NCBI RefSeq assembly: GCF_900104475.1
Contig: NZ_FNJR01000007.1
Coordinates: 186,001 to 250,000, forward strand
DNA: 64,000 bases
Origin: Actinopolyspora xinjiangensis
GTDB lineage: Bacteria > Actinomycetota > Actinomycetes > Mycobacteriales > Pseudonocardiaceae
Direction: 5' to 3'
Position numbers and translations under genes: made by a program. The stretch's first letter is position 1; the number at the start of each line of letters is the position of its first letter. The notes under the pieces are model-generated. The model ran no database searches. It was not told the DNA's origin and saw only the letters and a program-made list of their open reading frames with translations. Below, piece by piece: positions 48,790 through 55,325 of this stretch.

Positions 48790-50445
48790 TCAGCCGAGGC
48801 GCGGAACACGGACCCCGCGCTGGTCGGCCACCTCCCGCGCCCGCTCGTAGCCCGCGTCGACGTGGCGCATCACCCCGATGCCGGGGTCGTTGGTCAACAC
48901 GCGCCGCAGCTTGCGCTCGGCCAGTTCGGAGCCGTCGGCGACGATCACCTGCCCCGCGTGCAGCGACTTCCCGATGCCGACCCCGCCTCCGTTGTGGACC
49001 GACACCCACGTCGCCCCGGAAGCCGTGTTGACCAGGGCGTTGAGCAACGGCCAGTCCGCCACGGCATCGGAACCGTCGGCCATCCCCTCGGTCTCGCGGT
49101 AGGGCGAGGCCACCGATCCGGTGTCCAGGTGGTCCCTGCCCAACACCACGGGAGCCCGCAACTCGCCGGAGGCCACCATCTCGTTGAACCGCACCCCCGC
49201 CAGCTCCCGCTGGCCGTAGCCGAGCCAGCAGATCCGGGCGGGCAGGCCCTGGAACGAGACCCGTTCCCCGGCCATCCTGATCCAGCGGGCCAGGTGCTCG
49301 TCCTCGCCGAACAGCTCCAGGATCGCCCGGTCGGTGGCGGCGATGTCGGCCGGGTCTCCGGACAGCGCCGCCCACCGGAACGGCCCCTTGCCCTCGCAGA
49401 ACTGCGGCCGGATGTAGGCGGGCACGAAACCCGGGTAGTCGAAGGCGCGTTCGCAGCCCGCCGTCCGGGCCTCCCCGCGCAGCGAGTTGCCGTAGTCGAA
49501 CACCTCGGCGCCCGCGTCGAGGAAACCGACCATCGCCTCGACGTGCCGGGCCATGGACTCCCTGGCGCGGGCGGTGAACTCCTCCGGAGCTCGGGCGGCG
49601 TAGTCGGCCCACTCCGCCGTGGAAACCCCCACCGGCAGGTACGACAGCGGGTCGTGCGCCGAGGTCTGGTCGGTGACGATGTCCACCTCGGCCCCGCGCC
49701 GCAGCAGCTCGGGCAGCACCTCGGCCGCGTTGCCGATCACCCCCACCGAACGGGCCTCGCGGCGTTCCCGGGCCGACTCGGCACGTTCGAGCGCGTCGTC
49801 GAGGTCGTCTGCCACCTCGTCGAGATAGCCGTGCCGGACCCTGCGGTGCGCGCGGTCGGCGTCGCACTCCACGACCAGGGCCACCCCCTCGTTCATGGTC
49901 ACCGCCAGCGGCTGGGCGCCTCCCATGCCACCGAGACCGGCCGTGACGGTGAGCGTTCCGGCCAGTGTCCCGCCGAAGCGCTTCGCTGCCACCGCCCCGA
50001 ACGTCTCGTAGGTGCCCTGCAGGATTCCCTGCGTCCCGATGTAGATCCAGGAACCCGCGGTCATCTGGCCGTACATGGTCAGTCCCAGCGAGTCGAGCCT
50101 GCGGAACTCCGGCCAGTTCGACCAGTCCCCCACCAGGTTGGCGTTGGCGATCAGCACCCGGGGCGCCCACTCGTGGGTGCGCACCACACCGACGGGTTTG
50201 CCGGACTGCACCAGCAGGGTCTCGTCCTCGGCCAGCCCGGTCAGCTCGCGCACGATCGCGTCGTAACTGGGCCAGTCGCGGGCGGCCCTGCCGGTACCGC
50301 CGTAGACCACCAGGTCCTCCGGGCGTTCGGCCACCTCGGGGTCCAGGTTGTTGCGCAGCATGCGCAGCGGTGCTTCGGTACTCCAGCTCCGCGCGGTCGG
50401 CTCGGTGCCGCGCTGGGCTCGTACGGTGCGACTTCCGGTTGTCAC
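48790..50445 (-). CDS. hutU: Urocanate hydratase
   Basis: 551 residues. Converts urocanate to imidazolone-5-propionate using bound NAD+ as electrophile. Strongly conserved segments: [53 protein letters not shown] near 185, [14 protein letters not shown] near 395 and [15 protein letters not shown] near 495. The GTG overlaps the hutH stop (GTGA). Followed after 149 bp by the M20 gene. Confidence 0.97.
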
Positions 50446-52180: not shown

Positions 52181-53020
52181 TTGGGCTCCAGCAGCGACGT
52201 GCCCGCGCTGCGACGTGGGCTCGCGGTGTTGCGCGTTCTGGCCGCGCGCCCCGGCCCCGTGTCGGCGGCGGTGATCGCGCGGGAGCTGGAGCTGCCGCGC
52301 TCCACGACGTACCACCTGCTCGCGGAGCTGACCGAGGCCGGTTTCGTGACCCACCTGCCGGAGGAGCGGCGCTACGGGCTGGGAGTGGCCAGCTTCGAGC
52401 TGGGCTCGGCATACCTGCGGCACGAACCGCTGGAGCGGCTCGCCGGACCGCTGCTGCGCGAACTGGTCGACCGGGTGGGTGACAACGCGCATCTCGGGGT
52501 GCTGCACGGCAACGAGCTGCTCTACCTGATCAAGGAACGACCCTCCCGACCGCGGACGCTGGTCACCGACGTGGGGGTGCGGCTGCCCGCGCAGCTGACC
52601 GCCTCCGGCAGGGCGATGCTGGCGCACCTGCCGCGCAATCAGGTCCGGGCGCTGTTTCCCAGGGCGGACAGTTTCGTGCTGCGCACGGAGCGGGGGCCGC
52701 GTGATCTTCCGGAGCTGCGACGACTGCTCGCGCGGGAGTACCGGGCGGGCTGGTCGGTGGAGGACGGTCAGATCACCGAGGGGTTCGCCTCGGTGGCGTG
52801 CGCGGCGTTCGACCACGGCGGGCGTCCCACCGCCGCGATCAGCGTCACCATGCGGCACCACTGCGAACCGGTCGAGGCGACCGCGGCGGAGAACGGGCGA
52901 TCCCGTTCACCCTGCGGGGAGAGCTGGCCGGAACTGGCCCGGCTGGTGCGCGCCACCGCCGACGAGCTGACCAACCGGATAGGCGGGCGGACCGGCCGAG
53001 AAGGCAGAGCTCGCGGCTGA
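52181..53020 (+). CDS. IclR-family regulator of the hut operon
   Basis: 279 residues. N-terminal winged helix (about 8-70; SAAVIARELELPRSTTYHLL), effector domain (about 85-255) with LPAQLTASGRAMLAHLP and ITEGFASVACAAFDHGGRP. Divergent from hutH, so it very probably represses or activates histidine degradation in response to a pathway intermediate. The TTG at 52181 has GGAGGG just upstream; the next candidate, GTG at 52199, has none. Confidence 0.92.
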   Translation: MGSSSDVPALRRGLAVLRVLAARPGPVSAAVIARELELPRSTTYHLLAELTEAGFVTHLPEERRYGLGVASFELGSAYLRHEPLERLAGPLLRELVDRVGDNAHLGVLHGNELLYLIKERPSRPRTLVTDVGVRLPAQLTASGRAMLAHLPRNQVRALFPRADSFVLRTERGPRDLPELRRLLAREYRAGWSVEDGQITEGFASVACAAFDHGGRPTAAISVTMRHHCEPVEATAAENGRSRSPCGESWPELARLVRATADELTNRIGGRTGREGRARG

Positions 53021-53292: not shown

Positions 53293-53628
53293 CTACCGCC
53301 CGTCCTCGGCGAACCGGAATCTCGTCGGAGAGGGTGGGCCGTACCGGTGGCGGTGCCGGAGCAGCAGCGCGAAGTAGCCGATGATGCCCGCGACCGCGAG
53401 AAGGCCCAGTGCCTTCGCCCCCTGACCGGGCAACATCAGGTTGACACCGTTCAGCGCGATCATCAGCCCGAGCAGCAGCTGGTTGCGCCCGGCCGCGCGA
53501 CTCGCGGGTGTACCGCGCCCCCAGGGGAGTACCGCTACCCTGCCGGTCCAGCCCAGGATCCCGAACAACACGGCCACGGCACTGCCGACCCATCCGACCG
53601 CCAGGGAAACGATCAGGAACCAGTCCAT
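53293..53628 (-). CDS. Small membrane protein, array member 1
   Basis: 111 residues with three hydrophobic segments (about 2-27, 47-62, 70-90). It shares with the three upstream genes the order hydrophobic N-terminus, GILGWTGRVAVLPWGRG, a GRNQLLLGLMIALNG block, and a basic HRHRYGPPSP C-terminus. ATG 53628 overlaps the stop of member 2 (TGATG), so the two are translated together. It is the most diverged of the downstream copies and lacks the KRLAG ending. Function unknown. Confidence 0.85.
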   Translation of the reverse strand: MDWFLIVSLAVGWVGSAVAVLFGILGWTGRVAVLPWGRGTPASRAAGRNQLLLGLMIALNGVNLMLPGQGAKALGLLAVAGIIGYFALLLRHRHRYGPPSPTRFRFAEDGR

Positions 53629-53969
53629 CAGCCCGCCAATCGTTTCGAGGAATACCTCTCTCCCGGCCGCGGCCGGGGGCCGTACTTCCGACGGTGCACT
53701 ATCGACAGGACGAGGAAACCGAACATGGTCACCGTCAACAGAGCGATCAGCGGACCGAAACCCGTGCCGGGCACGGCTCCCACGACCCCGTTCACTCCGA
53801 TGATCAGGCCGAGCAGTATCTGGTTCCGGCCGCCCTCCCGGTTCGCCCGGGTCCAACGCGCCCAGGAACTGGCCGAGACCCTACCCATCCAGCCGAGCGC
53901 GCCGTAGATGACGAACATCGCGCCGACCAGCGGCGCGCCCACGAGGAACACGACATCGAAGGAGTCCAT
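53628..53969 (-). CDS. Small membrane protein, array member 2
   Basis: 113 residues, three hydrophobic segments. Contains YGALGWMGRVSASSWARWTR followed by ANREGGRNQ, identical to member 3 over 29 residues, and ends HRRKYGPRPRPGE with a SSKRLAG tail. A 29-codon block is identical to member 3 even at DNA level (53818-53906). Preceded by the AATCTCCAC element 47 bp upstream. Function unknown; the conserved basic loop lies between membrane segments 1 and 2. Confidence 0.87.
   Translation of the reverse strand: MDSFDVVFLVGAPLVGAMFVIYGALGWMGRVSASSWARWTRANREGGRNQILLGLIIGVNGVVGAVPGTGFGPLIALLTVTMFGFLVLSIVHRRKYGPRPRPGERYSSKRLAG
53818..53906. repeat. 89-bp identical block, copy in array member 2
   Basis: Identical base for base to 54347-54435 while the sequences on both sides diverge. 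It encodes the loop between the first two membrane segments. Points to recent gene conversion between neighbours. Confidence 0.92.
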
Positions 53970-54015
53970 GACTCCGGGGTATCAGAGAACGATCGCCACT
54001 GTACCCGCTTCACGA

Positions 54016-54024
54016 AATCTCCAC
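54016..54024 (-). promoter_or_regulatory. Conserved element upstream of array member 2
   Basis: AATCTCCAC on the plus strand (GTGGAGATT in the direction of the gene), 47 bp upstream of the start. The same element occurs 48 bp upstream of members 3 and 4. A GATACC -10-like box follows 33 bp downstream. Confidence 0.6.
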
Positions 54025-54150
54025 GACGGACCAAACCCGGCAGGCGAAGTATCTCCCACCGAAAAGTCCCCCGGGAGCCCCGGAGCCGAACACCATACGG
54101 CCAGACGGCCCGACGGATGGGTACGGATCCGACCGGCAGGAACCAGACCG

Positions 54151-54498
54151 TCACCCGGCCAGGCGCTTCGCCGCGTACGGGGAGAGAGATCCCGGCTGCG
54201 GCCGGGGGCCGTACTTGCGGCGGTGCAGCACCGACAGGGTGGCGAACCCGACCATGGCCACGGAGGCGACGACGGCCAGCGGAAGCGAAACAGGATAAGA
54301 CACCGCTCCCGCGGCCCCGTTCGTCCCGATCAGCAGGCCGAGCAGCATCTGGTTCCGGCCGCCCTCCCGGTTCGCCCGGGTCCAACGCGCCCAGGAACTG
54401 GCCGAGACCCTACCCATCCAGCCGAGCGCGCCGTAAACCATGATCGTCGAACCGCCGAGCAACGCGATCACGAACAGCAGGACATTGAACGACTCCAT
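54151..54498 (-). CDS. Small membrane protein, array member 3
   Basis: 115 residues, three hydrophobic segments. Shares the YGALGWMGRVSASSWARWTR loop with member 2, then QMLLGLLIGTNG and HRRKYGPRPQPG with an AAKRLAG end. Separated from member 2 by 181 bp and has its own copy of the upstream element, so it is probably transcribed from its own promoter. Function unknown. Confidence 0.87.
   Translation of the reverse strand: MESFNVLLFVIALLGGSTIMVYGALGWMGRVSASSWARWTRANREGGRNQMLLGLLIGTNGAAGAVSYPVSLPLAVVASVAMVGFATLSVLHRRKYGPRPQPGSLSPYAAKRLAG
54347..54435. repeat. 89-bp identical block, copy in array member 3
   Basis: Exact match to 53818-53906, in the same position and frame of the gene. Confidence 0.92.
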
Positions 54499-54545
54499 GA
54501 GTCAGCGATACCAAACAACCGGCCCCGTTGTCCGCCGTTTCGCGG

Positions 54546-54554
54546 AATCTCCAC
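54546..54554 (-). promoter_or_regulatory. Conserved element upstream of array member 3
   Basis: AATCTCCAC within CGGAATCTCCACAGCGGA, 48 bp upstream of the start; a GTATCG -10-like box lies about 34 bp after it in the gene direction. Confidence 0.6.
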
Positions 54555-54648
54555 AGCGGATTCCCCAGGACGTCCGAAAGTTCCGCTTCCGCACAGCGCC
54601 CTGGGGCGCGCAGCGCTCGGGAAACGGGAGCCGCCTGGAACCGGTCCG

Positions 54649-55011
54649 CTATTCCACTACGCGCTTCGAGGAATACCGTTCTCCGGGGCGCGGCGGCGGG
54701 CCGTACCGCCCGCGGTCTCGGAGCCCCCGGACCAGACAACCGAGCGCGGCCACGAGAGCGACGGCGGACAACAGCAGCGAGACGATCCCCGACAGCACGG
54801 ATCCGCTCACCGAAAGCACAGAAGCGGAACCACCGGCACCGAGCATGGTGCCCAGCAGAACCAGATTACGACCGCTGTCACGGTTCGCCGAGGTCCCGCG
54901 TTCCCAGGACCCCACAGCGGTCCACTCCGCCCAACCGAGCAGACCGGCGACCACCACCAAGACGCTGCCGGGCAGCAGAAGCACGAGCGCCACGATTTCG
55001 AGCGGATCCAT
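54649..55011 (-). CDS. Small membrane protein, array member 4
   Basis: 120 residues, three hydrophobic segments. Same plan as members 1-3 but more diverged: GLLGWAEWTAVGSWERGTSA, then NRDSGRNLVLLGTMLGAGG, and a C-terminus RYGPPPRPGERYSSKR. The C-terminal tail is nearly that of member 2. It is the first of the array in the direction of transcription and carries its own upstream element. Function unknown. Confidence 0.85.
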   Translation of the reverse strand: MDPLEIVALVLLLPGSVLVVVAGLLGWAEWTAVGSWERGTSANRDSGRNLVLLGTMLGAGGSASVLSVSGSVLSGIVSLLLSAVALVAALGCLVRGLRDRGRYGPPPRPGERYSSKRVVE

Positions 55012-55325
55012 GAGACAGCCTTATCAGAACTCGACAGTCGGCGGGTCCGGCGGCCCGGAATCTCCACAACGGACCCACTCGAACGTCCGAAAGACAGTGC
55101 GCGAAGAGCTCGGCTCCGGCGTCCACGTGCGTCTCGGTCGCACAGCTGTTTCGCGCACTCGGTGCGAGATCGCGCGACGCGCGGAATTACGTCGGCCACC
55201 ACCCCCGGAACCACCACCGACGTCGTGACGCCGACCGGAGGGCCCGCACGGGATCGGGACGCCCGTTCGGCGGAGACCAGGTTCCACCGGACGAGCGCCC
55301 CGATCACCGTAGCGGTGCGGCCCGG
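55012..55325. other. Spacer between the array and the osmoprotectant operon
   Basis: Besides the conserved element no further feature is seen, and no terminator for the osmoprotectant operon is obvious. Confidence 0.4.
55059..55067 (-). promoter_or_regulatory. Conserved element upstream of array member 4
   Basis: AATCTCCAC within CCGGAATCTCCACAACGGAC, 48 bp upstream of the start; a GATAAG -10-like box follows 33 bp later in the gene direction. Confidence 0.6.

Follow-up and report, generated by a model that had tools for sequence, protein, structure and literature searches.

A tandem array of four small predicted membrane proteins in Actinopolyspora and its possible distant kinship with SdpI

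In passages of a published account (PMC11995493), SdpI is described as the sole characterised representative of its family so far. According to these passages, the Bacillus subtilis protein holds the toxin SdpC with helices 1-3 and the repressor SdpR with helices 4-6; TrpP, a relative of SdpI with three transmembrane (TM) helices, aligns with the latter half of B. subtilis SdpI and is predicted to have its N-terminus outside and its C-terminus inside (N-out/C-in). Here we analyse four adjacent genes, M1 to M4, of Actinopolyspora xinjiangensis, located in a stretch of 64,000 nucleotides (the window; contig NZ_FNJR01000007.1, positions 186,001 to 250,000). We tentatively read this array as a genus-specific family of three-TM proteins that evolves by birth and death, probably derived from or sister to the SdpI/YhfL family, whose members would act as parallel sensors or immunity proteins. 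What confidence we place in this reading comes mostly from the SdpI-like kinship and the shared plan of the proteins, and less from the immunity part.

Four paralogues and their profile likeness to SdpI

M1 to M4 align end to end, have the same residue in 25 columns and give pairwise tblastn E-values of about 5e-14 to 9e-44, bearing out an earlier interpretation made from the letters of the window (the sequence-only reading), which had seen here a tandem array of four related genes. The invariant columns include, in M1 numbering, G26 W27, W36, R38, T40, A42, R44, G47 R48 N49, R93 and Y96 G97 P98, the G-W pair sitting at the end of helix 1. The best AlphaFold model has three helices (predicted local distance difference test score, pLDDT, 83.8), in agreement with the claim that these are small membrane proteins, three helices being predicted in 111-120 residues. 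The loop and the tail are more positive than the hairpin and the N-terminus, and these positive-inside charges suggest an N-out/C-in orientation. Of the basic RYGP-P-PG tail assigned to the four proteins, the Y-G-P core is common to all, but PG is absent from that of M1 (RYGPPSPTR), and K takes the place of R in M2 and M3 (KYGP). The stop codon of M2 and the start codon of M1 overlap as TGATG in all six genomes having M1, the window genome included; M1 is therefore probably translationally coupled, as had been claimed. No fifth copy was found in the same genome, where the next match has an E-value of 0.034.

As the sequence-only reading had stated, no family is recognised: none of the four window proteins has a match over the curated cut-offs of Pfam or NCBIfam. 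For 21 members of the family, the searches gave weak matches in Pfam, NCBIfam (best E 0.0042) and PHROGs (best E 0.0072) and no match in PADLOC. Searches of PDB sequences returned weak matches at most for the alignments A1 and A2, and weak matches (best E 0.14) for the profile of the SdpI set A3. SdpI is the Pfam family with weak matches in most members (10/21, best E 0.0058); P0002 scores 12.1 bits with PF13630, under the curated cut-off of 28.2 bits, and no member was seen above it.

Small size, three TM helices and a tandem arrangement would also suit holin-like or other pore-forming proteins, derived from phages or acting as toxins. M4 has a weak match to Phage_holin_3_6 (15.0 bits, E 0.026, under the cut-off of 28.4), and such matches occur in 3/21 members (best E 0.0072). 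We consider this explanation very unlikely: no relative was detected in viral contigs by a two-peptide pattern scan, nor by tblastn with M2 against 50,697 phage and 72,556 plasmid records, and hhalign with Holin_X gives 22.5 across 22 columns only. Holin homology was rejected as unsupported on this last result; a known holin family is what the sequence-only reading had named as one possible refutation.

Profile-profile comparison gives part of the case for kinship with SdpI. The whole array family scored 28.5-40.2 against mixed SdpI rows (probability 48-91, depending on the rows used), with a colinear match over 64-88 columns. In the controls, 200 column shuffles reached at most 26.0 and reversals 17.7-18.9, and four other families of small membrane proteins (holin-X, FxsA, DUF202 and MrpG) scored 17.9-22.5 against the array. 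Alignment A2 has 21 rows, namely 20 full-length sequences and the M4 of genome G177, which is stopped short, and is without the G134 M4 and the G117 and G165 remnants; adding the G134 M4 shifts the score with SdpI set A4 from 36.0 to 35.2. The SdpI sets A3 and A4 use 19 of the 30 loci found and another comparison 25/30, and the control sets comprise 23/25 loci for Holin_X, 21/21 for FxsA, 25/25 for DUF202 and 21/22 for MrpG.

Several results weigh against this relation. The SdpI rows of the same genus, used alone, score 13.8, and the M1 clade alone scores higher with FxsA (27.2, probability 39, 37 columns) than with SdpI (22.3). In SdpI, helices 1 and 2 have between them a conserved loop, N-R-x-x-G-x-R-T as read from alignment A3; this loop lies opposite a 12-residue gap in the array proteins, and pairwise BLAST found nothing. 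Single members have lower Pfam E-values with ExoD (0.0011), DUF2759 (0.003) and FxsA (0.0051); FxsA scores 10.8 bits with M1, under its cut-off of 25.2. Finally, the best PDB matches of the array structure in Foldseek, weak as they are (E 0.077 at best), are MrpG and NuoK. The latter would fit MrpG/NuoK-related small subunits of cation/proton antiporters that serve salt homeostasis in a halophile, an explanation that we regard as unlikely, homology with MrpG being unsupported by profile. With these results against it, a distant relation to SdpI is the best-supported lead that the sequence comparisons provide.

Coding status, selection and gene conversion

There is good evidence that the array frames are coding. 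When neutral evolution was simulated along the gene tree, 4.2 of 20 frames stayed open on average and 11 at most, and 0/300 runs kept all 20; the 20 real sequences had been preselected as full length (across every copy found, 21/24 are open), and the FastTree distances used ignore codon structure. A non-coding reading was therefore rejected, the frames being open far beyond the neutral simulation. The G134 M4 and the G117 and G165 remnants are outside both the simulation set and the set used for the ratios of nonsynonymous to synonymous substitutions (dN/dS) given below.

By the Nei-Gojobori method, which is biased in GC-rich genes, M1 had dN/dS values of 0.47-1.02 and the M2-like orthologues had values of 0.31-1.14. 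The comparison genes in the neighbourhood gave 0.08-0.22 (iclR), 0.03-0.20 (hutU) and 0.07-0.14 (the ABC transporter ATPase), and a true SdpI gene in the same genomes gave 0.07-0.40. Substitutions in M1 are spread nearly evenly across the three codon positions (0.098, 0.081 and 0.096). The ratio of nonsynonymous to synonymous differences per site (pN/pS) varies along the protein: it is 0.27 (M1) and 0.47 (M2) in the loop and 0.75-1.6 in the helices, while the hairpin, eight codons long, has values of 0.06 and 0.00 within orthologues and 0.91 among the four paralogues. For the tail it is 0.30 in M2 orthologues and 1.11 in M1 orthologues. The diversifying selection offered by the sequence-only reading is only partly borne out, in that dN/dS is unusually high, but only 3/31 ortholog-type pairs exceed 1 and the loop is constrained; relaxed constraint on the helices therefore explains the high values equally well.

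These rates bring in the chief rival explanation, that the array consists of orphan, lineage-specific membrane proteins with a loose generic role, for example in membrane packing, which duplicate and decay and have no dedicated partner or signal. The high dN/dS relative to iclR, hutU, the ATPase and true SdpI speaks for it, as do the nearly even codon positions of M1; the frames kept open far beyond neutral expectation and the constrained loop speak against it. We hold it to be somewhat unlikely.

Over the W-x-R/GRN loop, 89 consecutive bp are the same in M2 and M3, two genes with 76% identity. None of 5000 column shuffles reached this length (maximum 56), and within the block M2 is closer to M3 than to its own G177 orthologue. 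The block is consistent with gene conversion and points to it. Between genomes G000 and G134, synonymous divergence (dS) is 0.16 for M1 and 0.26 for M2, against 0.37 and 0.40 for iclR and hutU (about 40-70% of the latter); the array dN of 0.12 is three- to fourfold higher than the 0.03-0.04 of iclR and hutU. Between G000 and G177, the M1 dS of 0.055 lies below the 0.10-0.11 of iclR and hutU, and that of M2 (0.157) does not. Interspecies recombination is one possibility for the low dS and high dN of the array. Taken together, the sequences point to a family that evolves by duplication, conversion and decay at one chromosomal place.

Upstream elements, distribution and neighbouring genes

The motif GTGGAGATT(C/T)CG precedes each of M2, M3 and M4, in agreement with the claim that these three genes have individual upstream elements: the box is nearly private to the array and stands at a constant distance from the ATG (Table 1). 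At no more than one mismatch it has 4 matches in the window against 0.83 expected, three of them exact and all three in the array, and 1/100 shuffles reaches 4 matches. Over the whole genome (5 Mb), a 19-mer promoter box has 4 matches at up to two mismatches, 3 in the array, and its reversed-pattern control none. Recent duplication would equally produce such a near-private promoter box. Fifteen aligned upstream regions, a set that includes the truncated G177 M4 and omits the M1 copies, the G117 and G165 remnants and the G134 M4, share a conserved box GTCCGcTGTGGAgaTTtCG, a GGACA-like element and GGTATC near the ATG. In 14/15 of them a TA stands 12 nt 5' of the start codon, the final T of TANNNT being missing. 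Leaderless genes have a TA-like -10 signal about 10-12 bp before the start, according to a passage of PMC3160421, and by the position of this TA the starts of M2, M3 and M4 may be leaderless.

Table 1. Positions of the array genes, their putative upstream elements and the regions used for comparison (window coordinates)
Feature	Position	Strand	Description
M1	53293-53628	minus	111 aa, predicted three-TM membrane protein
M2	53628-53969	minus	113 aa, three-TM membrane protein; AlphaFold helices 3-27, 41-65, 72-96
M3	54151-54498	minus	115-aa paralogue; 89 bp near codons 22-51 same as M2
M4	54649-55011	minus	120 aa, the paralogue that has diverged most
M2 upstream box (GTGGAGATTTCG)	54013-54024	minus	44 nt 5' of ATG
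M3 upstream box (GTGGAGATTCCG)	54543-54554	minus	45 nt 5' of ATG
M4 upstream box (GTGGAGATTCCG)	55056-55067	minus	45 nt 5' of ATG
Putative -10-like element (TGATACC..., TA at -12)	53970-53984	minus	directly 5' of M2 ATG; equivalents at M3 and M4
M1+M2	53293-53969		region compared between G000 and G134
iclR, hutU	52181-53020, 48793-50445		regions compared between G000 and G134

The family is present in 8/10 Actinopolyspora genomes with 24 copies, 21 intact and 3 broken. Four intact copies each are found in G000, G134 and G117, two each in G177, G072, G165 and G038, and one in G150; G177, G117 and G165 have one broken copy apiece. It is M4 that is affected, being stopped short in G177 and reduced to remnants in G117 and G165; in G134 it is open (116 aa). 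The range of 0-4 intact copies per genome, the breakage of M4 in three genomes and the two genomes of ten in which none was found again suit the orphan proteins with a loose role; the retention of the family in the other eight and of the promoter box at a near-fixed distance speaks against them. In G097 no array copy or remnant was detected at the locus, and an alpha/beta-hydrolase-like gene occupies the gap. In G188 no copy was found either, but the contig starts beside iclR, with what appears by eye to be the end (L122 1-81) of the transposase-like open reading frame (ORF) seen in G038, so that loss of the array is not proven there.

Outside the genus, two genomes in a sample of 297 had matches at E <= 0.001, and further samples had them in 23/397 and 14/394 genomes at E <= 0.05 (best 0.002); the three samples overlap, and scoring covered the best 15, 11 and 11 candidates in each genome. 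Of these matches, five were inspected (L018, L017, L077, L100 and L102): by eye none has the family motif, four lie within larger ORFs and that of L100 lies in a 74-aa ORF. Judged by these five, the weak matches look like chance. A pattern scan of genome contigs matched only A. mzabensis and A. alba. A spread across other Pseudonocardiales, which the sequence-only reading had proposed to look for, was not found in the sampled genomes with the best 11-15 candidates scored in each; among the genomes sampled, clear relatives by sequence were found only in Actinopolyspora.

In 8/8 loci the array is flanked by an OpuC/ProV/OsmF-like ATP-binding cassette (ABC) transporter, below the NCBIfam cut-offs, and by the convergent gene of an IclR-type regulator, beyond which lie hutH and hutU, both over the NCBIfam cut-off. 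The array proteins might then be accessories of the adjoining osmoprotectant transporter, since they are read in the same direction beside its genes in all eight loci of a halophilic genus. This seems quite unlikely to us, as the array has its own promoter boxes, other genes intervene in several relatives, and both G097 and G001, a member of another genus with the same neighbours, carry the transporter with no array detected.

The intervening genes differ between genomes. Genomes of the A. alba type carry, between the osmoprotectant transporter and the array, a DHA2/EmrB-type efflux gene and a gene for an S-adenosylmethionine-dependent methyltransferase with a His-rich start (L038 11384-13951, minus; L041 6128-8689, plus; L039 5371-6987, plus; L040 6795-7808, minus). 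The efflux transporter of L038 has 855 aa and a long C-terminal extension; in L040 the methyltransferase is open, and only a 211-aa frame partly like the efflux transporter is listed. G038 has the transposase-like ORF, recognised by eye, between transporter and array (L042 7048-7857). A cytidine deaminase gene adjoins the array in G150 (L043 8584-9018, plus; NCBIfam PRK08298, over cut-off), and L042 8097-8450 has an antisense frame similar to the antisense of this gene. Another genus in which the neighbours are the same has, at the array position (L120 7725-8608), a small antisense protein resembling a ribbon-helix-helix regulator and a 114-aa ORF with one hydrophobic half.

Proposed mechanism and comparison with known systems

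In the reading that we prefer, the loop W-x-R-x-T-x-A-x-R-x-x-G-R-N and the R/K-Y-G-P tail would lie on the cytoplasmic face and dock one common partner, and gene conversion would keep the docking loop of M2 and M3 alike. The helices and the outer hairpin would recognise differing membrane or extracellular inputs, such as peptide toxins, lipids or envelope stress; the hairpin, which varies among paralogues and is steady inside each orthologue group, would give each paralogue its specific input. Working in parallel, the paralogues would serve in the membrane as sensors or immunity proteins, and most of them would have a short promoter of their own, possibly a leaderless one. The model is drawn by analogy with the two halves of SdpI, as the passages cited at the outset describe them: the uniform loop would answer to a common partner, the variable helices and hairpin to different inputs. 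A more specific version, improbable as a whole, would have an SdpI-derived scaffold without the hallmark loop, a docking loop kept uniform by conversion, and helices and hairpin that track changing membrane-active toxins in hypersaline communities.

Three further results count against this proposal. The M1 tail is unconstrained in orthologues, and loose constraint would account for the high dN/dS of the array no less than diversification would. In addition, the transporter, iclR and hut neighbours also occur in array-free genomes, so that no dedicated partner gene is seen among them, SdpC and SdpR not having been searched for.

If the link to SdpI is true, the array is a fast-evolving tandem family that separates a constrained cytoplasmic loop from variable membrane parts, and would provide a handle on the binding partners of SdpI-type three-TM proteins. 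If it is false, the array is an example of a genus gaining and losing a private family of small membrane proteins at one variable chromosomal place.

Compared with the known systems, the array shares with FxsA (PF04186) the nature of a small membrane protein and, in the M1 clade, the match with probability 39 over 37 columns; the whole-family hhalign score of 19.2 over 35 columns is at noise level. With Phage_holin_3_6 (PF07332) the likeness is that of a small hydrophobic protein, the match being local and weak. MrpG (PF03334) and NuoK have a similar size and, by the weak structure matches, possibly a similar three-helix arrangement, but MrpG is without profile support (hhalign 17.9, probability 2.3, shuffles up to 18.6). 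From SdpI/YhfL (PF13630; the three-TM type, TrpP of Corynebacterium glutamicum) the array proteins differ in the missing G-x-R-T loop, in their tandem arrangement with an R/K-Y-G-P tail, and in having no Cys-rich tail such as that of the SdpI of their own genome. They resemble it in the three helices and the N-out/C-in orientation, both predicted and, for TrpP, as given in the cited passages, and in an ANR..G-type stretch before helix 2 in both. By the tests made the array is not SdpI, yet SdpI is what it most resembles.
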